Origin: a virus
DNA length: 45,997 bases
IMG/VR virus record: IMGVR_UViG_3300048687_000102
Coordinates: 1-45,997 of that record
Strand: one strand, 5' to 3'
Part shown: positions 16,913 to 37,025 of the stretch, one piece after another
Position numbering within the stretch: the first letter of the stretch is position 1
Layout: every line of letters begins with the position of its first letter
The notes under the pieces: model-generated
Seen by the model: the letters and a program-made list of their open reading frames with translations, nothing else
What the model was told of the DNA's origin: nothing
Databases searched by the model: none
Position numbers and translations under genes: made by a program

Positions 16913-18349
16913 CTAAGCGCGCCAGACTATTTCGATCAGATCGGGATTGAACTTGGCCACACCCTTGCCCTGCGGGTGGACGATGACTCCTTCCAGGCTC
17001 CGCAGGAGCTGGGCCCGCTGGCGCTCCAGCGGGAGCGCGTCGAACGTCTCCCTGGTGTACTCAACCGCCTCGGTGCGTCTGTTCTCGCGCTCCGCGCGGC
17101 GCTTGAGCAGGGCGAGTCTTTGCTGCTCCTGCTCAAGGTCTTGCAGCATCGGAAGAGCCGTGCTGATCAGGATCTTCCTGGTCGTCACGGCATTACGCAC
17201 CTGCTTGATGTCGCTGGTGCACCTGTCCAGCTCCCGCTGGCGGTTCTCGCCCCAGCCGACATCGCCGGCGGTGAGGCATGCGCGACGCTCGTCGCTCAAC
17301 ACCGCGTCGACAACGAGGCGATCGATCGGAGCGCCCACGCGGGCGATCTTTCCGCAGCCCTTGGCGTAGCCGCTGCGATCGCACAGGTACACCTGGTACT
17401 GCGTGCCGCTGGCGCGGCGGCGCATCTGGCCCCGCATGGGGCCGTTGCAGGCTCCGCAGCGGGCGATGCCCGACAGGAGATAGCGCATGGCGTTGGTGCC
17501 CGGGCGCTCCCGCGTCGGGCGTCGGGCCTCCAGTGCCTCCAGGACCTCGGACAGTTGATCCTGGGAGCACAGTGGCTCCCAGGCTGCCCGTATGGGCATC
17601 CCGTCCTGCCCGAGGACGACTTCGCCCCGGTAGACCTTGATTCCCGCCAGCGCCGGGTTTGTCAGGACCCGGCGGACCGTCTTGTGGTCCAGGCGCTCCG
17701 CGCCGCGGAACCTCTTGCCGGATCGGGACGTCGGGGCTATGCCCCGCTTGAGCCAATCCGTCTGGATGTCGGAGATCTTCGCACCTCCCAGGATGGCCTT
17801 GTGCGCGGCGAGGATCTCCTTCCCCGCTTCCGGGTCGACCGTCAGGCCGTCCGCTTGCCAGCCGTACGGCTGGCGCCCTCCGTGGGGCTTGCCTTCGCCG
17901 GCAAGCTCCAGTTGTTTGCGCTGGACCCTGCGGCCGGTATCGGCCGAGGACTTGTTGGCGAAGGCCACCATTACGCGGGCCATGGTCAGCCCGTCCGTGG
18001 TGGCCAAGTTAACGTCTCCTTCGAGCGTCGCGAACACGTAGCTCGCCCGCCCGGCATAGATGTCGATGGCCCGCTCTAGGTCCCTGGGTTGGCGGGCGAA
18101 GCGGTCCAGGTTGTAGACCACCACGCCCTGGATGATCCCCAGGTGCAAGTCACCCAGCAGGCGTTCGAACTCGGGGCGCACCACCTTGCGCTGGTACGCG
18201 GAGAGATCGTTGTCCTCGTAGATCCCGGCAACATTCCAGCGGCGGACCGCTGCCAAGGCGCAGCAGTCCTCGCGCTGCCTGGTGACGCCCTTGGCGTCGC
18301 CTTCGACGTCCTCGGAGATGCGTACGTAAACGCCCACGTCAATGGGCAT
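16913..18349 (-). CDS. int: Large serine integrase (478 aa)
   Basis: A large serine recombinase. S12 in YVRISED is the catalytic serine, D82/R83 (YNLDRFARQPRD) belong to the resolvase active site, residues about 150-260 are the recombinase domain (GKPHGGRQPYGW), C298, C301, C323 and C332 form the zinc ribbon, and about 365-440 are the coiled coil. The length is normal for the family. It would insert the phage at a chromosomal attB using an attP next to the gene. ATG 18349 is preceded by GGGGAGG, part of which lies in a hairpin (18358-18377). Confidence 0.97.
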   Translation of the reverse strand: MPIDVGVYVRISEDVEGDAKGVTRQREDCCALAAVRRWNVAGIYEDNDLSAYQRKVVRPEFERLLGDLHLGIIQGVVVYNLDRFARQPRDLERAIDIYAGRASYVFATLEGDVNLATTDGLTMARVMVAFANKSSADTGRRVQRKQLELAGEGKPHGGRQPYGWQADGLTVDPEAGKEILAAHKAILGGAKISDIQTDWLKRGIAPTSRSGKRFRGAERLDHKTVRRVLTNPALAGIKVYRGEVVLGQDGMPIRAAWEPLCSQDQLSEVLEALEARRPTRERPGTNAMRYLLSGIARCGACNGPMRGQMRRRASGTQYQVYLCDRSGYAKGCGKIARVGAPIDRLVVDAVLSDERRACLTAGDVGWGENRQRELDRCTSDIKQVRNAVTTRKILISTALPMLQDLEQEQQRLALLKRRAERENRRTEAVEYTRETFDALPLERQRAQLLRSLEGVIVHPQGKGVAKFNPDLIEIVWRA

Positions 18350-18574: not shown

Positions 18575-18858
18575 GCCTCGTCCTCGAAGGCGCGCTCCAG
18601 CGCATCGCCGGGGACCTGGACTTCCGTCATGGAAGTCCAGCCCTTCGACCAGTGCTTCCGCTCGATCCGCTTGCGCTGGGCGTTGCCGTCGATGCCCATG
18701 AAGGCGCAGAGCTGGCCGGGGAAGACCCAGTGGCCGCGCTCGTCGGTGAAGACGGCGGCCTGGCGGCCGTGGAAATCGAAGGAGGTGAGCCGGCTCGGCT
18801 CACCTGGCGGAACGGGAACGATCTCGCTCAAGGCTCCCGCCTTCCATGTACGGGACAC
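18571..18858 (-). CDS. Antirepressor N-terminal domain protein (95 aa)
   Basis: Residues about 23-80 match the P22_AR_N-type domain: LTSFDFHGRQAAVFTDERG, then WVFPGQLCAFMGIDGNAQRK (the LGIDxxxQxKR-like motif) and HWSKGWTSMTEVQVPG. In full antirepressors this is followed by a second C-terminal domain that is absent here, so the protein is short. Starts at ATG 18858 and overlaps the gene at 18828 by 31 bp. It may bind a repressor or be a regulatory remnant. Confidence in the domain is good, in the role low. Confidence 0.75.
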   Translation of the reverse strand: MSRTWKAGALSEIVPVPPGEPSRLTSFDFHGRQAAVFTDERGHWVFPGQLCAFMGIDGNAQRKRIERKHWSKGWTSMTEVQVPGDALERAFEDEA

Positions 18859-19397
18859 GGCCCCGTCGCCACGGGGCCTGCCGATGTCTGATGCTCACGC
18901 TCTCGCGTGCCGCAGTGGCACACGGGCTTGACGGCGGCCTCCCGGCTGCCGCCTGCTTCCCAGCGCTGGATCGACTTCGCGATCCACGCGAAGCGTGCCG
19001 GGACATCCGGCTCCGCCGGCCTGTAGAAGTCCCACGCCGCGCGGGGACGCAGGAAGGCCGGGGCCAGCATGAAGCGGCCCCGGCCTTTGCCGGTCTTGTG
19101 ATCCCAGGCCAGTTCCTGGCCCGCCGTGCGGGCGGCGGAGCCGCCCCCCAGGGCTTTCAGGAACTTCCCCTGGGTGTCCAGGACACCCCGGGTACTGAAC
19201 GGCCCCAGGACCACCGTGTGGGCGGTCTCTGGGGCCTCGGGGAAAGCTATCTGCCCGACCACCGCTAGGCGGTGGGTCCGGGCTCTGATCTCATCAAGAG
19301 CATCGATCGCGAGGTCCGCGACCTCCCCAGCTGTTCGGTTGCTGTTCTCCGGGTCCGTCAGGATCGCCGCTACTGCGGCGTTCTCTCTCGCGCTCAC
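18828..19397 (-). CDS. Hypothetical protein with C-terminal Cys/His motif (189 aa)
   Basis: A 189-aa protein starting at GTG 19397, fixed by GGAGG seven bases upstream. The N-terminal 60 residues are helical (EVADLAIDALDEIRARTHRL). The middle is a mixed domain with TVVLGPFSTRGVLDTQGKFL and WDHKTGKGRGRFMLAPAFL. The C-terminal VCHCGTREREHQ and CPVHG form a potential zinc site. I do not recognise the family; it resembles proteins found in the accessory regions of actinophages. It overlaps the HTH gene by 104 bp. Confidence 0.6.
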   Translation of the reverse strand: MSARENAAVAAILTDPENSNRTAGEVADLAIDALDEIRARTHRLAVVGQIAFPEAPETAHTVVLGPFSTRGVLDTQGKFLKALGGGSAARTAGQELAWDHKTGKGRGRFMLAPAFLRPRAAWDFYRPAEPDVPARFAWIAKSIQRWEAGGSREAAVKPVCHCGTREREHQTSAGPVATGPCPVHGRREP

Positions 19398-19605
19398 CTG
19401 CGCGCCTCCAGCGTGATGCCGTGTCGGATGTGATGCCGTACACCTCGGCAACCTCTCGCGTGGTCATGCCAGCCTCAATGGCCATGTACACGTAGTCGAA
19501 TTTGTCCAGCTCCGCCTGGCGCTCACGCTCCGCGAGCGCCAGGAGGTCGCGGACCAGGGCCTCGCGCCGCTCGCGAGTGATCATCGGCTTGGCCCTGCGG
19601 GGCAT
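19294..19605 (-). CDS. HTH DNA-binding protein (103 aa)
   Basis: A 103-aa protein. Helices at about 9-40 (REALVRDLLALAERERQAEL) precede an HTH, MTTREVAEVYGITSDTASRW, at about 47-66. The last 35 residues are Arg/Gly-rich and lie in the 104-bp overlap with the next gene in another frame, so the functional protein may end near residue 72. It is the first gene behind the palindrome at 19647-19670, which makes it a candidate for an autoregulated repressor. Confidence 0.75.
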   Translation of the reverse strand: MPRRAKPMITRERREALVRDLLALAERERQAELDKFDYVYMAIEAGMTTREVAEVYGITSDTASRWRRAGERERERRSSGDPDGPGEQQPNSWGGRGPRDRCS

Positions 19606-20669: not shown

Positions 20670-20754
20670 GTGCCTCCGCCGGACTTGAACCGGCGCCTCC
20701 CATCGCGGCCCTCTGGGCCGATCAGGGCGCTCTAACCATCTGAGCTAGGAGGCG
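20670..20754 (-). tRNA. tRNA-like gene, anticodon uncertain (CGG by position), with palindromic insertion
   Basis: On the minus strand the sequence has an acceptor stem (GCCTCC with GGAGGC), a standard D arm (GCTC ... GAGC with GGTTA), and a T arm with GTTCAAGT between GCCGG and CCGGC. The anticodon arm pairs only with one mismatch; the loop would put CGG at positions 34-36 (proline). It is followed by about 16 extra bases, so the total is 85 nt. The extra part forms CGGCCC-AGA-GGGCCG, the same kind of short hairpin found all over this genome. Position 1/72 does not pair and CCA is not encoded. Whether it is charged is doubtful. Confidence 0.6.
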
Positions 20755-24608: not shown

Positions 24609-24731
24609 TCACGCGTCCCACGTGCGGTACTCGGATCGGTGAACGTAGACCGTGTTCACCCAGCAGCCGGTGCGGGCATCGAAGATGTCGATGCGGGTGC
24701 TCAACTGTCCGTACATGATCTCGTGGTTCAT
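24609..24731 (-). CDS. Small hypothetical protein (40 aa), first gene of leftward region
   Basis: A 40-aa protein (MNHEIMYGQLSTRID...) with GGAGAGGAC in the leader, followed on the minus strand by coupled genes at 24606 and 24361. The sequence is beta-rich (CWVNTVYVHRSEYRTW) with no known motif. It is the first leftward gene left of the large non-coding region. Confidence 0.6.
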   Translation of the reverse strand: MNHEIMYGQLSTRIDIFDARTGCWVNTVYVHRSEYRTWDA

Positions 24732-25384
24732 AACTCGTCCTCTCCTACGGTCATGACTGCTCATCAGGCACGCTGCGCACCGCGCAGCGCACTTGACGAG
24801 ACAGGGCCCGTGAAGGCCCTGCACGTCAATGTCTTGTCCTCGCGTCATAAGGGCGTTCGCGAGGTGGCCCGTCGGCGTATGAAGCGCCGACTCTCGTGCA
24901 AGTTCTCCCTGTTGCTCCGCGGTGTGTCCGCGGTTCTCCGGCGCCCGGGCTGTGACCCCCATCTGCGTAGGTGCTCCGAGGAAGCAAGCACCTCCCGTAT
25001 TAGCTCCCCATGTGGGGAGCGCACTGGTCCGGGTGACCCGTTGCACCGCCCGGAAGGGCGGCGGTTGATTCAGTTCTCAACTGGGCCCGCAGAGGGCCCT
25101 CTTGTCATCCGTTCAGCCGCCGTTTCCGGCCGCTTCCTGCTGACAGACGTAAGACTGCCATAGCCCGATCCGTCGGGCTATGCCTGGAGAGTAAAGCATT
25201 GGCAAAGACCGGAACGATCATGAACGTTGGACCAACTGCACTGCTCTGACCTGCCAGTTCACGCGTGAGTGTGTGCACACAGTGGATCTGTCGCAGGGTC
25301 GGCAATCCTGTGCCGCCCGAGGAATCAGGCACTTTGATCTTCGGATAGTCCGGATCGCGTGGCGCGCCATGCGCCCTTGACGTG
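24732..25384. other. Non-coding region left of the hairpin array
   Basis: No convincing gene. It is rich in short inverted repeats: GCTGCGC-ACC-GCGCAGC (about 24772-24788), CCGCGG-TGTGT-CCGCGG (about 24919-24935), GCTCCCC-ATGT-GGGGAGC (about 25003-25020), CCGCCC-GGAA-GGGCGG (about 25048-25063) and the 10-bp palindrome at 25159-25182. The stretch 25185-25370 has fewer of these and may hold a leftward promoter, but I cannot fix -35/-10 boxes. Confidence 0.5.
25159..25182. promoter_or_regulatory. Perfect 10-bp palindrome, operator-like
   Basis: CATAGCCCGA (25159-25168), spacer TCCG, TCGGGCTATG (25173-25182). Its core is shared with 19647-19670, where the outer four bases are exchanged but still pair. 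Conserved core with compensating arms in two separate non-coding gaps suggests an operator or structured RNA element. Confidence 0.6.
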
Positions 25385-26302
25385 CGGCCCTGATGGGCCG
25401 TCAGGTGGCCCGCAAGGGCCGGGGTGGGGAGTTGGGCCACCTCCGTGGCCATGGGCCCGTACAGGGCCGTGCATGCCCGCCCGGCAGGCGTTGCCCGGAA
25501 GGCAACGGCAGCCAGGGGCGGGATGGGTCTTCTTCGCGCGCGCATGCGCGTATGGGCGGCATAGCCGCCCGTGGTCGTCCCGACGGGACGACACATGCCC
25601 CCTTCCGACAACGCCCCCGGAGGGGGCTGTCGGTCCTCAAGGGCTCCATGCCTGCGGCATGGGCCCGAGCGGCGGAAGGGCAGCCAGCTCTCCGGCTGGC
25701 AACTGACCGCCGGATCAGTGATCGAAGATCACTTCCCGTCCAGGGGCCGGCTCTGCCGGCCGCATGAGGTGTGCCATGCACACCGGTCATGCGTGCACCT
25801 GGGGTGCACGTCTCTTCTCTGGCCGCCCCTCACGCCTGCCCGGCGTGAGGGCAGAGGCTGCCATGGGCAGCCGTGTGTGTGCGCCTGTGCGCACACCATG
25901 TGAGCGACCCCATCAGATGAGCACCATGGGTGCTCGGATGAGGGGGGACAGTCGCTCACGCTCCTGTCCAGGGCCCTCCATCCACGCCCATTTGGGCGTG
26001 TATGTCCGGATTATCTCTCTCATATGAGCGCCATGGGCGCTCTCTTGACCCCAGGGTATTAAACCCTGGGCCCTGGACTGGACTGGTGCACCCCCGGGGG
26101 TGTGGCCCAGACCCCATAGTGTCGGCCTGTCGGCCGACCGTATGGGCGCTCATGTGAGCGCCGTGTCTTTCATGCCGAAGCATCTCGGGGTGGTGTGCTT
26201 TCCTGCACACCCCGAGATGCGCGGGGGGGTTCGCTAAGGGGGGCCGGGGCCCCCCTAGCTCACTGCGTCCCAAGTGGGACGCTCTGTGCGGCCCATGGCC
26301 GC
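25385..26302. repeat. Dense array of short perfect hairpins
   Basis: More than twenty separate inverted repeats in about 920 bp. Examples with 3-base loops: 25554-25570 (loop ATA), 25574-25592 (GAC), 25646-25662 (TGC), 25718-25732 (GAA), 25745-25761 (TCT), 25768-25784 (CAT), 25792-25810 (TGG), 25856-25872 (ATG), 26026-26042 (ATG). Longer ones: 25828-25850, 25877-25896, 25900-25959 (outer stem with inner 25919-25935), 26050-26070, 26180-26220 (16 bp in two parts). Stem sequences differ, so this is an array of structures, not of one repeat. No gene is supported. Confidence 0.85.
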
Positions 26303-26431
26303 CTGTCTCGGCGCCCTCTGGCGGGGCGCCATATGGCGAGACCGGAGGGGCTTTTCCCTTCGGTCGAGCTTCGCTGGGTCGAGCTTAGCTGATGGTTAAT
26401 CGGTTAAGTCAAGACCCAGCGGCGTGTCGTG
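26303..26431. other. Non-coding, transition from hairpin array to AT-richer region
   Basis: Contains one imperfect hairpin (about 26343-26362, CCGGAGGG with CCCTTCGG), then a direct repeat GGTTAA-TC-GGTTAA near 26395-26408 and a drop in GC. No gene seen. AT-rich sequence here beside repeats is compatible with a promoter or origin. Confidence 0.4.
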
Positions 26432-26472
26432 GATAACGAATTGATAACGAATCAATAACGGACCTGTTATCG
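26432..26472 (+). repeat. Iteron-like 11-bp repeats upstream of terminase
   Basis: Three direct copies at an 11-bp period: GATAACGAATT, GATAACGAATC, AATAACGGACC, followed by an inverted copy (TGTTATCG, 26465-26472). One turn per repeat puts the sites on the same helix face, typical for a multimeric binding protein. They lie about 80 bp upstream of the terminase start. The GATAACGAA-n4-TAACGGAC arrangement at 26443-26463 is repeated inside the portal gene. Confidence 0.7.
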
Positions 26473-26514
26473 ACGTTGGTCCGGGGGCCCCTCAGGGGCG
26501 CTCTGGATTGGATA

Positions 26515-26542
26515 GACTGCTAGCACCGAAGTGCTAGTAGTC
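26515..26542 (+). promoter_or_regulatory. Palindrome at the start of the late operon
   Basis: GACTGCTAGCAC (26515-26526), loop CGAA, GTGCTAGTAGTC (26531-26542): 12 bp with one wobble mismatch. The motif GCTAGC-n5-AAGTGCTAG is shared with 41781-41804 upstream of the scaffold/capsid genes. It sits 11 bases before the terminase GTG; TTGGATAGACT lies immediately upstream as a possible -10 region. Probably an operator or translational control hairpin for late genes. Confidence 0.6.
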
Positions 26543-26552
26543 AGGGGGTGTA

Positions 26553-28490
26553 GTGGCCCACAGGATCGTGGGGGGCGCAGCCCCCTCCAGGGACCGCCGT
26601 CGCACGCTCGCTTCCAGCGAGCACGCGAAGGACGTGATGCTGGCCGGACTGAAGTCCGGACTGACCGTCAAGCGGGCCGCGGAAGCGGCCGGGCGGCAGG
26701 AGACCACGTACCACTACTACCGCCGTACGGACCCCAACTTCCGGACCATGGCTGACGCTGCGCTTCAGCAGCGAGCCGAGGGCTACAAGCCGGGCGAGAA
26801 GCCCGTGCCGGACTTTCCGGAGTTCTGCGAGAGGTATCTCGGGATGGAGCTGTTCCGTCATCAGCTCCAGTGGTACGACCTCCTGGAGGGCAGGGAGCCC
26901 CGCGACCTGCACGCGAACCAGAGGTTCGAAGCCGCGGATCCGGACATGCTCCTGATCAACACCCCTCCAGATCACGCCAAGTCGACCACGATCACGGTCT
27001 CGTACGTGGTCTGGCGGATCTGCCAGGACCCGAACATCCGCATCCTGATCGTGTCCAAGAACCAGGACATGGCCAAGAAGTTCCTGGTGTCCATCAAGGA
27101 CCGACTCTCGGAGTCGGACACCTTCGTCCGACTCCAGGGGGACTTCGGCCCGCCCGGCGGCTTCGCCGACGGCGCGACCGTCTGGTCCGCGGACAAGATC
27201 TACGTCCAGGGCCGGGACTCCGGCGAGAAGGACCCGACCGTGCAGGCCCTGGGTATGCGCGGTCACATCTACGGCTCCCGGGCCGACCTGGTCATCATGG
27301 ACGACTGCATCGTGGGCGCCAATGCCCACGAGTACGAGAAGCAGATCGACTGGATTCAGAAGGAGGTCGGCTCCCGCGTGGCGTCCGCCGCGGGTCGCAT
27401 CCTCCTGGTCGGGACTCGTATCGAGTCCGTGGACCTGTACTCGGAGATCATGAAGCCCGGGTACTACAGCGAGGGCGTCTCGCCCTGGACCCGGCTGACC
27501 CAGCCGGCCGTTGAGGAGTACGCGGACAAGCCCGGAGACTGGACCACCCTGTGGCCACTGACCAACCGGCCCCCGGTCTCCGTCCAGGGCCGCAAGCTCG
27601 CCGAGTCCCAGGGCTGGCCCAGAGACGGCATGTGGCCCGCCAAGAATGGCGAGGCCCTGGCCAAGGAGCGCCGCAGGATCTCTCCTCGCGCCTGGTCTCT
27701 GGTCTACATGCAGGAACAGGTCGCGGATGACGCGATCTTCCGCATGGACGCCGTGCAGGGCTGCATCGACCGGGCCCGCTACCCCGGCCGCCTGATGGCC
27801 GGCCAGGCCGACCATCGCAAGTACGGCATGGAGGGCCTGACCGTCATCGCCGGCCTCGACCCGGCCGCCGCCGGGTTCACGGCGATCGTGGTCATCGGTC
27901 TGGACCGCCAGACCGGAGAGCGCTGGCTCCTGGAGGTCGTCAACAAGAAGGCGATGCCGCCGCACGATCTCCGCTCCGAGATCCAGCGCATCACCGATCG
28001 CTACTCGGTGAACGAGTGGCGCATCGAGACCAACGCCTACCAGGCGTCGATCGTCCAGGATCACCTGATCCGGGACTACCTGAACAGCCGCGGCACGCTG
28101 CTGACGGGCCACCACACGGGTGGCAAGAAGTGGGACTCCGACTTCGGCGTGGCCTCGATGGCCACGCTCTTCGAGGGCTGGCAGGACAAGCGGAATCTGA
28201 TCCGCCTGCCGTCCCAGACGCAGTCCGAGTCGATGCGTCAGCTGGTGGAGCAGTTCACCAGCTGGTTCCCGGAGACCAAGGGTCTTACCGACATCGTGAT
28301 GGCGTGCTGGTTCGCCGAAATCCGCTGCCGCGAGCTGATGGCCTCCAGCCTGGACGGCTGGCACGTCCCCGGCAACGAATTCCTGAGCCCGCGCGACCGC
28401 GAGAACCAGATGGTCGTGGACATCGAAATGGCCCTGGCCCAGGGCCCATCAGGGGATGACCCGTTCGCGGGCTGGTCCCGACTGAACTGA
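26553..28490 (+). CDS. terL: Terminase large subunit with N-terminal HTH (645 aa)
   Basis: The ATPase-nuclease that packages DNA into the prohead. Walker A-like TPPDHAKST at 137-145, Walker B LVIMDD at 246-251, and the nuclease beginning GLDPAAAGFTAIVV near 434. Residues about 25-60 (KDVMLAGLKSGLTVKRAAEA, then ETTYHYYRR) form an HTH resembling a small-terminase DNA-binding domain. No separate small terminase was found, so this may be a fusion. GTG 26553 follows GGGGGTG. At 645 aa it is longer than most large terminases, consistent with the extra domain. Confidence 0.92.
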   Translation: MAHRIVGGAAPSRDRRRTLASSEHAKDVMLAGLKSGLTVKRAAEAAGRQETTYHYYRRTDPNFRTMADAALQQRAEGYKPGEKPVPDFPEFCERYLGMELFRHQLQWYDLLEGREPRDLHANQRFEAADPDMLLINTPPDHAKSTTITVSYVVWRICQDPNIRILIVSKNQDMAKKFLVSIKDRLSESDTFVRLQGDFGPPGGFADGATVWSADKIYVQGRDSGEKDPTVQALGMRGHIYGSRADLVIMDDCIVGANAHEYEKQIDWIQKEVGSRVASAAGRILLVGTRIESVDLYSEIMKPGYYSEGVSPWTRLTQPAVEEYADKPGDWTTLWPLTNRPPVSVQGRKLAESQGWPRDGMWPAKNGEALAKERRRISPRAWSLVYMQEQVADDAIFRMDAVQGCIDRARYPGRLMAGQADHRKYGMEGLTVIAGLDPAAAGFTAIVVIGLDRQTGERWLLEVVNKKAMPPHDLRSEIQRITDRYSVNEWRIETNAYQASIVQDHLIRDYLNSRGTLLTGHHTGGKKWDSDFGVASMATLFEGWQDKRNLIRLPSQTQSESMRQLVEQFTSWFPETKGLTDIVMACWFAEIRCRELMASSLDGWHVPGNEFLSPRDRENQMVVDIEMALAQGPSGDDPFAGWSRLN

Positions 28491-32201: not shown

Positions 32202-35200
32202 GTGAGCCTGGGCGATTTCCTCAAGGACGTGGGACATGCCGCCGCCAGCGGCATCGGCGCTGTCTCCAGCGGCCTCAACGAGCTGGACAAGCTCGGTGGC
32301 CTGAACCCCTTTCACGTGGAGCAGGGGTCCAGGACGGACCCCTCGAAGTCCGCGGAGAACGGCCCCTGGGCCGCACCTGTCTTCAATCCGGTCAGTCATC
32401 AAGTGGAGAACGTCCTTCAGGCCATCACCTGGACCAAGGACAATGTGATCTCTCAGCCGATCTCCACGGCCAGTCTGATGGCCGGGCAGTACGGCGACTT
32501 CCAGGATGTCGGCCATTACTTCAGCACCGCCAACTGGGCCAAGAGCTGGCACGCGGCCGAGCACATTTCGCTCGGCCAGGGCTTGCTGTCCATGGCGACC
32601 TTGGACGAAGCTCAAACCCGTGACCTCGTGAACAGCCCACTCCTGCGCTACAAGCCCGGCGCGGCATACCTGCCTCCCGGCTTCGATGAGCTGCCCGAGC
32701 AGGAGCAGCAGCGAATCCTCAAAGATGCGGGTATGCCCGCCGTGGGCAACGCCTACATCGAGGAGATGCGCCAGAGCAGCAAGTTCTTCAAGTACGGCTC
32801 GGGCCTGATCGACCTCGCGTTCATGTGGTTCGCCGACCCTGTCGTCCTGGGCGGCAAGGGCCTGTCGGCCGCCCGCCGGGAACTCCAGGTCGTCAAGCGG
32901 CCTCCGGCCGGCTGGTCGTCGCACGACATCGACCAGATCATGGACAAGTCGGTGATGGCCAAGGCGCAGGACTTCGTCTGGAACAACCGCGACAATCCGG
33001 CCCTGTTGAGCAATCTCCCGAACATGAACCCCCGTCTTGCGTCCATCGCCGCCACGCTCAAAAGCCCTGACGAAGTCCATGACTTCTTCCGCATCGGTTA
33101 CGGCGACGTGAGCGCCATCGAGCGCTTGCAGACGAAAAACGCCCTGGCTGCCGCCAGGGTTGAGCAGGACACCAGCCGCCTGTCGGCGCTGGGTCTGATG
33201 GCGTCGAATTTCGACGCGCAGGCCACCGGCCGCGCCGCGCAGTACGCGGCGCTGACGCGGAGCGAGATGGAGCGACTCAACGGCCGCATCAACGCGGACG
33301 TTGATCTGGTGTCGAGTTACAACCGCATCCTGGACCACGCCCACGAGATGGACTCGGTGAACCTCACCCGCTGGTCCTTCGCTCGTGCGCAGCAGCGCAC
33401 GGAGGCGCAGGCGGAGTACCGGGCTCGCGCCGCCCGGGGCGGCAAGGCGGGTTACGAGCTGAGCCATCTTCCGCCCTGGCTCAAGGAGCGACGGGCGCAG
33501 GCCGCCGCTCAGGGCATCGAGGTGCCGTTCGCCAACGGCTTCGTCAAGAGCCGGATCTACGGCCTGGGCGATTTCTTCTCCACACCGGTCACGGTCGTGC
33601 GGAGCTTCGGCAATGCCCGGCCGAACGGCTTCATGCGAATCGATGACATCGATGACGCGAGCATCGCGGAGTTGCGCGGGCAAATCGCCCGCATTCCGGG
33701 CATGACGGACCAGACCCGGCTGAACATGGTCAACGAGTACCTGAAGACCGGGACAGAGCATGAGCGCCTGGCGCTGCTGAAGCAGATCGGCGCCACGGGC
33801 GCCGCGAAGGTCGCGGAGAAGCACGGATTGGACCCCGAGGTGGGCCTGGACATCTACAAGGAGCACCTGAAGCGCCAGGTCGGCGAGATCGACAACATGA
33901 AGCGGTACTCCGCCGCCTTCCGTGAGCGGCCGTCGGCCGATCAGCCGGCCGGTATCCGGGTGGACGAGTTCATGGATGACGGCGGAAAGCTTGTCCCGGC
34001 CCCGAACCTGGTCACGAAGCTGGCGAACAGCCACGTCTTCCAGGACCTGTCCGAGATGGACAAGGTCTTCGCGCGGCACTCCAGTGCGATCAGAGCCATT
34101 CGCACATCCACCCTGGGCAACCCCGACTGGATGCTGGCCGCCAGTGACTTCATCACCCACCTGTTCAAGTTCGGCGTCCTGTTCCGCCTGGGCTACATCC
34201 CCCGCGCCCTAGGGGATGACCAGGCGGGCCAGACGGCCCGCCTGGGCGCCGCCAGCATGGCGCTGCGCGCCAAGTGGGGCATCAAGAACGGCGCCACGAA
34301 TCTCGCCATGTGGCGCCCCGAGGCGATGGACGCCGCCCGCAGGGCGGTGGCCACGGAAGGCGCTCGATACGCCGAAGCGGAAATGGCGTCTATCGCACCG
34401 GACCTGGCGCGTCTCCGGGCGCCTGCTGCACCTCTGACGCCCGTCGAGACCCGGCAACTGGCCGCGCTGGAGGACGACCACCTCCACCTGACGCGCATGC
34501 GCGATGAGTCCCGCAAGGCGGCGGAGCCGCGTCAGAAAGTGATCCAGGGCAATCAGCCCGTCGCCCTGCCGGGCGGCGTGACCGGCCCGGCCGCGTTCGG
34601 CGGCCGTGAGGGCGAGATGTACTACAAGCTCGCCTCCGGGGACGAGGCGCTGGGGCAGATCTTCGCCTCGAACAAGGCGCTTGTCCATGGGCATCTGATG
34701 CGCAGCTTCGACCACGGCGGCAAGATCATCCGTGCCGCCGATGACGAGGCGCTGCACGCCACGAGCTGGGCGCATGCCATCAATGCCCAGCTCGTCCAGG
34801 ACAAGCTGTCCCTCCAGGCCATCCATGGCGCCAGCCCCGAAGAGCTGGTCCACTGGCTTAGCAGGACGGCCGAGGGTCGCGCCTACCGGCAGCGACTCGG
34901 CCTGTCGATGACCAGCGATGAGACCATCGCGAACTCCGCCTGGCACGAAGTGGAGGAGTACCTGCCCACGCCCGAGATCCGCGCGAAGGCGCTGGAGCCG
35001 GACGGCGTGAACCCGGGGTTCCTGAAGGAGGCCGTGCCGCTTCTTGGCCGCCCGGAGCTGCACACCGGGCAGGTGGGCACGTCCCAGCTCGGGCATCTGC
35101 GTGCCGTGGATCAAGTCATGGCCTCGTGGTACAAGGTGGCGGCCACGATCCCGGCCAACCGAATGAGCCGCCACCCGCTGTTCAACCAGCTCTACGAGGG

Positions 35201-37025
35201 CCACATGCAGACCCTCGCCTCCCAGCTCCAGAAGCAGGGCGCGTACGACACGACCGTGGCGGGAGTGGAGCGGATGGCCACGACCGCGCGCCGGCTGGCA
35301 CTGCGGGACACGAAGAAGCTGGTCTTCGACATCGCCCATCGCAGCGACGCCGCTGCGGCGCTGCGCTTCATCTCGCCGTTCATGTCGGCGACCACGGAGT
35401 CTTTCCAGCGCTGGGCGCGCATCATCGCGGACAAGCCGCAGACCGTTGGCTATGCCGCGAACTTCTACAACGCGCCCATAGCCATGGGCGGCACCGGCCT
35501 GGGCGGCCTGCGCATCAACGGGATGCAGGACGCGGACGGCAACGAAATCACCCGGGACGGGCACAGCTACACGATCGATCCGAAGACCGGCAAGGCCGTG
35601 AAGCGGCTCGTGCCGAAGTCCGAACGCTTCATCGTCGGGCGCATGCCGAAGTGGCTGGTGGACAGCCCCGTCGGCGTCGCCTTCGGCGCGGAGCGCAGCT
35701 CCGGAAACCTCAAGCTGTCCCAGAACTCGATGAACATCGTCACTCAGGGAGACCCCTGGTTCCACCCGGGCGTAGGCCCGATCGTGCAGATCCCCGTGAA
35801 CTCGCTCGTGAAGGACAAGCCGAAGGCGGCGGAGCTGGCACGCCATCTGGGCGTGCTGCCCTTCGGGCCGCAGAACGGCGGCCCCTTCGGCTCCGGCCCC
35901 GCCGGAGAAGCGGCCAGCTTCCTGCTGCCCGGCGCCATCAAGAACTTCCTGACGGCGTACGACACCAGTGATGCGCGCTACCAAGCGGTGAAGATGCAGA
36001 TCATGCAGCGGGCCGCGTACGAGCACAGCGAGCTGGGCAAGCCCATGCCATCGGCGGCGAAGATCGCCTCGATGACGAAGCAGTACTGGCTGTTCAGCGC
36101 GGGCAGCGCCTTTCTTCAGCCGATGGCGACCCAGCGCAAGGACGCGTACCAGTTCTACCGGGACCAGTACAACGCCCTGCGGCGCATCGATCCGCTCAAG
36201 GCGGACGATGCGTTCCTGGATCGCTTCGGCGAGTCGTACTTCGTCTTCGCCCAGGCGCAGTCCAGGAACCTCAGTGGCGTTCCCGCCACGCTCAAGGCCG
36301 TGGCGCTGAGCAAGAAGTACGGCGATCTCATCGCCGCCAACCCGGAACTGGGAGCCCTGATCGTGGGCCCGGAGGGCAATGGGCCTTTCTCGCCGGAGGC
36401 GTACTCCTACCAGCTCAACCACCCGCTTACCCCCGGCGACGCGGAGACGCAGCGGACCAAGATCTCCGCCACGGAGGCGATGCAGGAGAACCAGCGCCGG
36501 CTGGGCTGGTCCAAGTACGCGGCCATGGTGAACCGCCTGACGGCGGATCTGCACAACCGCGGCCTGAAGTCCTTCGCCGACAAGGGCGCGGAAGACCTGA
36601 AGCAGGAGAAGTCCAACTACACGAAGCTGTACAGCCAGCCGCTGTACCCGGACGGCAGTGAGAACCCGTACTACATCGAGGCATGGTCCAAGGACTTCAG
36701 CACCCTGGACGACCTGAAGTACGAGCGGCTCATTCCCGGACTCACAAACCTCGCCAGGAGCCCCCTGGCGGCCGAGCCGCTCCGCTCCGACCTACGGGTC
36801 CTCCAGCAGTATCTGGGCGGCCGTCAGGCCGTTCTGGGGGCCCTCGCGGCCCGTGAGGCCGCAGGCGGCCGGAAGACCCTGACCGCTAAAGCCAACGCCG
36901 ATCTGGCCACGCAGTGGCAGTACTTCGTTGATGGACTCATCGAGTCCGATACCCGCTTCGGAGACCTGCACTCGCGCTACCTGGCGCGAGACCTCGGTTA
37001 CGACGGAAGCCTCCAGGAGGCGTAG
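32202..37025 (+). CDS. Giant internal virion / DNA-ejection protein candidate (1607 aa)
   Basis: The largest gene. GTG 32202 is used. No catalytic motif is clear to me. The N-terminal 60 residues include a Gly/Ala-rich helix; a hydrophobic stretch occurs near 200-217 (SGLIDLAFMWFADPVVLGG); long helical regions follow to about residue 780; a more mixed region with GVTGPAAFGGREGEMYYKLA near 787-806 leads to an all-alpha C-terminus. Giant helical proteins downstream of portal and before capsid are typical of podovirus ejection machines (T7 gp15/gp16-like). Assignment rests on size, composition and position. A minor head protein is an alternative. Confidence 0.6.
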   Translation: MSLGDFLKDVGHAAASGIGAVSSGLNELDKLGGLNPFHVEQGSRTDPSKSAENGPWAAPVFNPVSHQVENVLQAITWTKDNVISQPISTASLMAGQYGDFQDVGHYFSTANWAKSWHAAEHISLGQGLLSMATLDEAQTRDLVNSPLLRYKPGAAYLPPGFDELPEQEQQRILKDAGMPAVGNAYIEEMRQSSKFFKYGSGLIDLAFMWFADPVVLGGKGLSAARRELQVVKRPPAGWSSHDIDQIMDKSVMAKAQDFVWNNRDNPALLSNLPNMNPRLASIAATLKSPDEVHDFFRIGYGDVSAIERLQTKNALAAARVEQDTSRLSALGLMASNFDAQATGRAAQYAALTRSEMERLNGRINADVDLVSSYNRILDHAHEMDSVNLTRWSFARAQQRTEAQAEYRARAARGGKAGYELSHLPPWLKERRAQAAAQGIEVPFANGFVKSRIYGLGDFFSTPVTVVRSFGNARPNGFMRIDDIDDASIAELRGQIARIPGMTDQTRLNMVNEYLKTGTEHERLALLKQIGATGAAKVAEKHGLDPEVGLDIYKEHLKRQVGEIDNMKRYSAAFRERPSADQPAGIRVDEFMDDGGKLVPAPNLVTKLANSHVFQDLSEMDKVFARHSSAIRAIRTSTLGNPDWMLAASDFITHLFKFGVLFRLGYIPRALGDDQAGQTARLGAASMALRAKWGIKNGATNLAMWRPEAMDAARRAVATEGARYAEAEMASIAPDLARLRAPAAPLTPVETRQLAALEDDHLHLTRMRDESRKAAEPRQKVIQGNQPVALPGGVTGPAAFGGREGEMYYKLASGDEALGQIFASNKALVHGHLMRSFDHGGKIIRAADDEALHATSWAHAINAQLVQDKLSLQAIHGASPEELVHWLSRTAEGRAYRQRLGLSMTSDETIANSAWHEVEEYLPTPEIRAKALEPDGVNPGFLKEAVPLLGRPELHTGQVGTSQLGHLRAVDQVMASWYKVAATIPANRMSRHPLFNQLYEGHMQTLASQLQKQGAYDTTVAGVERMATTARRLALRDTKKLVFDIAHRSDAAAALRFISPFMSATTESFQRWARIIADKPQTVGYAANFYNAPIAMGGTGLGGLRINGMQDADGNEITRDGHSYTIDPKTGKAVKRLVPKSERFIVGRMPKWLVDSPVGVAFGAERSSGNLKLSQNSMNIVTQGDPWFHPGVGPIVQIPVNSLVKDKPKAAELARHLGVLPFGPQNGGPFGSGPAGEAASFLLPGAIKNFLTAYDTSDARYQAVKMQIMQRAAYEHSELGKPMPSAAKIASMTKQYWLFSAGSAFLQPMATQRKDAYQFYRDQYNALRRIDPLKADDAFLDRFGESYFVFAQAQSRNLSGVPATLKAVALSKKYGDLIAANPELGALIVGPEGNGPFSPEAYSYQLNHPLTPGDAETQRTKISATEAMQENQRRLGWSKYAAMVNRLTADLHNRGLKSFADKGAEDLKQEKSNYTKLYSQPLYPDGSENPYYIEAWSKDFSTLDDLKYERLIPGLTNLARSPLAAEPLRSDLRVLQQYLGGRQAVLGALAAREAAGGRKTLTAKANADLATQWQYFVDGLIESDTRFGDLHSRYLARDLGYDGSLQEA

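Follow-up and report, generated by a model that had tools for sequence, protein, structure and literature searches.

The 1.8-kb non-coding gap upstream of the terminase gene of the window (the whole stretch analysed, one IMG/VR record of 45,997 bases) harbors a dense array of short perfect hairpins, the stems of which differ between related phages while the pairing is kept. It is plausible, though we would put it somewhat below an even chance, that the array is a DNA fold which protects the genome end or helps in its processing in a clade of temperate Streptomyces podoviruses. The genes are on the minus strand to the left of the gap and on the plus strand to its right, and the features of the locus are as follows.

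16913–18349, minus strand: serine integrase (PF00239, PF07508, phrog_95)
About 24735–26552 (counted over 24650–26552), no strand: non-coding gap of 1.8 kb, with 38 inverted repeats vs. 4.0 in shuffled sequence
25385–26302, no strand: hairpin array of 26 non-overlapping perfect inverted repeats
25963–25975, plus strand: 5′ arm of the long-range helix of the core, CCTGTCCAGGGCC, which pairs with the 26069–26081 region
25983–26000, plus strand: core hairpin a, 7 of 7 pairs changed on both sides, 100% paired
26026–26042, plus strand: core hairpin b, 3 of 7 pairs changed on both sides, 100% paired
26047–26062, plus strand: M1, GACCCCAGGGTATTAA, a conserved cis motif, in the window part of the hairpin at 26050–26070
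26069–26081, plus strand: 3′ arm of the long-range helix, GGCCCTGGACTGG
26075–26086, plus strand: short tandem repeat beside M1, GGACTGGACTGG (in other phages GATGGGATGGGATGG, GTGTGTG, etc.)
26090–26101, plus strand: core hairpin d (CACCC..GGGTG and flanks), 4 of 5 pairs changed on both sides
26109–26119, plus strand: M2, AGACCCCATAG, placed by homology just right of the terminal repeat
26553–28490, plus strand: terminase large subunit (phrog_38, E = 2e-70)

With arms of at least 6 bp and loops of 2–8 nt, the 26 repeats of the array covered 51% of its bases, and 200 dinucleotide shuffles of the same segment gave 2.8 ± 1.5 repeats with a maximum of 7. The perfect hairpin array of the original prediction is thus real, and its density exceeded that of the shuffled controls proposed as a check. 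The arms are 6–10 bp long and the loops mostly 2–5 nt. The densest 918-bp segments of the 46-kb record all lay at the array (up to 25 repeats), the mean for the rest of the record being 10 and the maximum 18. A weaker excess extended to the left (9 repeats vs. 1.2 expected, 24650–25385) and to the right (3 vs. 0.2, 26303–26552). The folding energy of the array as single-stranded DNA was far below that of shuffled sequence for both strands (z of -12.5 and -11.4), as was that of both strands folded as RNA (z of -11.6 and -14.1; 20 shuffles each). We agree that the stems are alike in form and unlike in sequence; no common stem sequence was present, which rules out an amplified repeat family, and blastn with the array as query against phage records gave no convincing match. 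Chance formation in high-GC DNA was ruled out by the shuffles, by the flanking coding DNA and by the array phages L146–L148, which at 60% GC carry 18–20 inverted repeats per 900 bp. Nearly 2 kb of non-coding DNA had also been regarded as unusual for such a phage; the gap indeed measures 1.8 kb, but it is no peculiarity of the window, as the related cluster-BF phages have 1.8–2.1 kb in the same place.

Relatives came from three scans of IMG/VR, two by pattern and one by terminase profile, and from one scan of GTDB genomes. About 35 related contigs, some from Streptomyces isolate genomes, were found to carry a comparable array at 0.4–1.6 kb upstream of terminase, with 12–25 repeats per 900 bp upstream of the gene vs. 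3–13 downstream and a terminase identity of nearly always at least 55%. The window terminase is 69–71% identical to those of the nearest array phages and 53% identical to the BF terminases. L005 (70% terminase identity) has its array in the same place; the linkers resemble those of the window, whereas the stems differ. The isolate carriers comprise a contig of Streptomyces hoynatensis (273-fold coverage) and one of S. himalayensis and, as segments of longer sequences, parts of a large S. composti contig and of the chromosome scaffold of Streptomyces sp. MP131-18. The S. hoynatensis phage (L178) stands on its own contig of 46,451 bases and is possibly an episome or an induced phage. Four further loci (L088, L089, L091, and L092) were rejected as chance pattern matches, and plasmid relatives, which had distant terminases only, were set aside.

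In a terminase tree, from which L146 was left out, the array phages formed one clade separated by a single change (support 100/97); the array has thus been inherited within a single clade. It is absent from the sister group, which includes the virulent cluster-BF isolates, and the densest 900 bp in the whole genomes of FlowerPower, Dennebes, and JXY1 held only 10–11 repeats. Integrase domains were detected in 10 of 13 array records and in none of 12 array-free records; as array and integrase each have one origin, this correlation represents one event and not thirteen. Judging by its serine integrase gene, the phage of the window is probably temperate. The BF podoviruses (Beephvirinae: FlowerPower, Immanuel3, and Manuel) share with the window the gene order around the gap and the cis-site formed by M1 and M2, and differ in having neither array nor integrase and in carrying 15–22 tRNA genes. 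The window has a single tRNA gene (Pro, 20670–20754). A 1,607-aa protein (32202–37025, plus strand; phrog_10618, without known function) is conserved throughout the group. In L086, about 960 bp (1577–2536) split the terminase frame (residues 4–144, then 141–645), perhaps an intron, an intein or a homing gene.

In most relatives, with or without the array, M1 (GACCC..GGG..TTAA) is followed upstream of terminase by short tandem repeats and then by M2, the variants of which are AGACCCC, AGTCCCC, or AAACTCCCC; this M1–M2 site is present in the window as in the BF phages. Direct repeats of 253–276 bp are found at the ends of the FlowerPower, Dennebes, Immanuel3, and Manuel records, in line with the 253-bp terminal repeat published for BF phages (PMC9753666). 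In all four, the repeat stops exactly before M2, between ..GAGTG and AGTCCCC. As M2 of the window starts at 26109, the right edge of its terminal repeat is predicted at 26108/26109, a position transferred from BF relatives at ∼53% terminase identity. Hence, the array probably surrounds the packaging cut, i.e., the physical genome end. In 24 array genomes, hairpin density was raised between about -600 and +300 bp relative to M1, whereas it was flat or lower there in array-free genomes. In the array phages, M1 itself is built into a hairpin, and an extra hairpin is inserted between the tandem repeats and M2. The upstream ends of many metagenome contigs (L097–L145) fall less than 1.3 kb from terminase, in or near the array, and the hairpins may hinder sequencing or assembly there.

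In the core of the array (25944–26120), six relatives have linkers in common and stems that differ. Standard pairs made up 99.6% of the stem cells in these homologues and G-U was absent; 19 pairs were changed on both sides and none on one side only. The original prediction that related phages would keep the pairing and change the bases was thereby confirmed. Slid controls of the alignment reached at most 51% paired. The alignment was assembled by hand and holds 38 distinct pairs among 40 entered, the other two being invariant duplicates (two G that belong to both the M1 hairpin and the long-range helix) that leave the 19 varying pairs unaffected; the stems were selected as paired, which raises the percentage paired and not the absence of G-U. 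All the pairs of core hairpin a vary somewhere in the six homologues and are always Watson–Crick. The long-range helix closes a domain of three hairpins and showed two compensatory changes in the six homologues, with one T-T mismatch in the window. The first two G of its 3′ arm are the last two of the M1 hairpin, so that both helices compete for them. Among more distant arrays, 159 compensated, 77 uncompensated double and 566 one-sided changes were counted; the pair was restored in 67% of double changes vs. ∼33% by chance. G-C to C-G flips accounted for 49 of the 159 compensated pairs. Many pairs are broken on one side from one related array to another, so that single hairpins are gained and lost; chance repeats and misalignment are part of the noise in this comparison. 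Stem identity between L116 and L117 was 94–95%, above the overall identity of 88%.

Covariation is normally taken as proof of structured RNA, and RNA under folding constraint tolerates G-U. Over 37 arrays, G-T made up 0.56% and A-C 0.42% of the pairs, both near the shuffle background, whereas 79 tRNAs of BF phages analyzed alike contained 10.4% G-U. Stems with one internal mismatch (G-T 10, A-C 9, other 45) showed the proportions of shuffled sequence, and one-sided changes between related arrays yielded G-T and A-C about equally (110 and 113). As a G-U pair reads A-C from the opposite strand, equal numbers of G-T and A-C also mean that neither strand is preferred.

Triloops of the array are closed by C-G rather than G-C about ten times as often (210:22) and tetraloops about five times as often (219:43), a bias absent from the repeats in coding DNA of the same contigs (110:89 and 90:101, respectively). 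A duplex-DNA palindrome bound by protein does not need C-G closure. Such closure is preferred in RNA GNRA loops and DNA GNA triloops, and it is the folded hairpin, DNA as RNA, that needs it (PMC5815330). The triloops follow a roughly strand-symmetric rule (K-N-M 85 vs. M-N-K 26), and the tetraloops favor KKMM (46 of 211); both patterns read almost alike on either strand. The symmetry is incomplete, as seen from GAA vs. TTC triloops (25:4) and GNA vs. TNC (45:19). These observations suggest, as the simplest reading, that selection acts on the folding of single-stranded DNA of either polarity, although template-switch repair of perfect palindromes could mimic part of the signal. Covariation without G-U and with little strand preference further suggests that selection for DNA folding can extend over nearly 1 kb of a tailed-phage genome.

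Under the favored reading, one or the other strand of the end region would become single-stranded and fold at once into a row of hairpins. The strand could be exposed during duplication of the terminal repeat and cutting of the concatemer, or by resection of the end after injection. The fold would then protect the end, or steer the nucleases, annealing or terminase acting there, so that the genome is packaged and later circularised for integration. Temperate phages, whose integration depends on circularisation, could have more need of such a fold. Packaging as such does not require the array, since the virulent sisters package with terminal repeats and without it. A single-strand role at the DNA level, or one in nuclease action or recombination, as listed in the original prediction, is compatible with these data. 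When 6 array genomes were compared with 8 array-free genomes for a clade-specific hairpin-binding protein, several proteins of the array clade came up, but no clear binder emerged among those examined, viz., a RusA-like resolvase (a function also present in BF phages), a primase part and uncharacterized proteins. A 207-aa protein without family, encoded near the integrase (18828–19451, minus strand), had matches in 6 of 6 array genomes and one weak match (28%) among the eight array-free ones. The array clade and its array-free sister clade, with the same packaging site, offer a ready comparison for terminal-repeat formation and for the survival and circularisation of linear phage genomes in Streptomyces.

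To our knowledge, no phage element of this kind has been described in the open-access literature. Streptomyces chromosome ends are themselves hairpin arrays, and the telomeres of Streptomyces linear replicons consist of packed palindromes (I–XIII) that fold a 3′ overhang of ∼300 nt, with GCA loops closed by sheared G-A (PMC4513846). The phage array resembles them in its tightly packed GC-rich palindromes that fold into short-loop hairpins, in its probable position at a replicon end and in the host genus. The telomeres, however, are terminal, carry a covalent protein and fold on one strand, whereas the array is internal, lies at a predicted direct-repeat junction and is nearly strand-symmetric, besides having three times the length and much greater variation in its stem sequences. 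Genes flank it on both sides in the window, in L102 and L114, and in the integrated prophages L177 and L179, and the terminal repeats of the relatives are direct and not inverted. The telomere of pSV2 contained four perfect inverted repeats in its first 300 bp. The excess of GNA over TNC recalls the GCA-type loops, yet G-T equals A-C and the loops are largely strand-symmetric. No match to a family of the Tpg or Tap kind was found among ∼25 window proteins compared with Pfam or PHROGs. On account of its internal location, the predicted direct-repeat junction and the strand symmetry, the array does not belong to the Streptomyces telomeres; by analogy, it may work like one. That it is an end-protection or processing device made of hairpins on both strands and selected as DNA, either independent of the host telomere palindromes or an imitation of them, is possible but doubtful. 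For T7, Chung, Nardone and Hinkle reportedly described in 1990 a hairpin end on concatemers in terminal-repeat processing (cited in PMC4925675). T7 is similar in its direct terminal repeat and in the hairpin DNA at the concatemer junction that is said to have been proposed as an intermediate, but it is without an array, as against more than 20 different hairpins over 0.9 kb at the present locus.

A replication origin or single-strand initiation region, in which hairpins on the lagging-strand template would load primase or helicase and DnaA would bind neighboring boxes, is the main rival reading and is rather unlikely to account for the array. Single-strand initiation sites do use hairpin-shaped single-strand DNA, and genes for a DnaB-like helicase and a two-part primase are present in the phage; the same replication genes, however, occur in BF phages that lack the array. 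Five array loci (L101, at -89/-73, L111, L112, L118, and L131) have inverted DnaA-box-like pairs (TTATCCAC..GTGGATAA, spaced by 16 bp) in the stretch from array to terminase; four more, the window among them (about 26429), have a single box. Because such sites adjoin the array in some relatives, the primase or origin role raised in the original prediction is possible; against it, boxes were present in only 9 of 37 array loci, one pair occurred in an array-free relative, the stems have no sequence motif in common, and more than 20 hairpins far exceed the need of known initiation sites.

That the array is transcribed into one large structured non-coding RNA, or into two such RNAs, is unlikely. 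A transcript of this sort would agree with the strong covariation, the multi-branched core with its long-range helix and conserved unpaired linkers, and the very low folding energy as RNA. GOLLD and ROOL are large ornate phage RNAs with hundreds of non-coding bases and multiple covarying hairpins, and the array is likewise long, non-coding, multi-hairpin, and covarying. Unlike them, it had no Rfam match at the gathering score and no G-U pairs, and it folds about equally well on either strand. The sub-threshold Rfam matches (snoRNA and CRISPR repeat) were weak and judged to be chance. An ordinary structured RNA was rejected for the absence of G-U; for the multi-hairpin, protein-binding RNA that had been suggested, the covarying stems hold, and the role itself is weakened by the lack of G-U tolerance on either strand.

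That the array is a mutational by-product, perfect palindromes being made and repaired by hairpin template switching with paired changes arising without selection, is quite improbable. Template switching explains Watson–Crick stems without G-U, strand symmetry, the turnover of hairpins, and the frequent G-C to C-G flips. It fits poorly with the fixed place of the array throughout the clade and its absence from the same 2-kb gap of the sister group, with the L116/L117 stems being better conserved than the average, and with the conservation of linkers such as the M1–M2 core. It is very improbable that the hairpins are two-way transcription terminators insulating divergent early and late operons and keeping the late one silent in the prophage. 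The location between divergent operons, the GC-rich stems on both strands and the integrase correlation would suit this, but transcription of the flanking genes leads away from the array on either side, and T just downstream of the hairpins (1.7 vs. 1.45 per 8 nt) and T-rich runs there (5.4% vs. 3.5%) are near background, so that an intrinsic terminator array was rejected for want of T-tracts (U-tracts).

Other hairpins and words were observed around these loci. At 24760–24800 of the window, upstream of the left operon, lies an element of the form CTCATCAGGCAC-hairpin-CACTTGACGAG, which is conserved in L085 and L087 although the stems have changed. In the outer helix, an A-C is conserved on the plus strand and reads as G-U on the minus strand; owing to this, the element may be a leader RNA of the left operon. 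The array-free gap of the BF phage FlowerPower (L001, 44747–46133 and 1–623) contains several GGGCAAAACGGACA-like words in both orientations. Early intergenic hairpins with differing stems and the same 6-nt loop (TGGCAT, TGGCAC, or GTGCCA), absent from the window, were located in L005 (1376, 2655, and 2984), L090 (4181, 5541, and 5976), L105 (1859, 3155, and 3197), and L104 (1862 and 2649); they could be leader elements bound by one protein.
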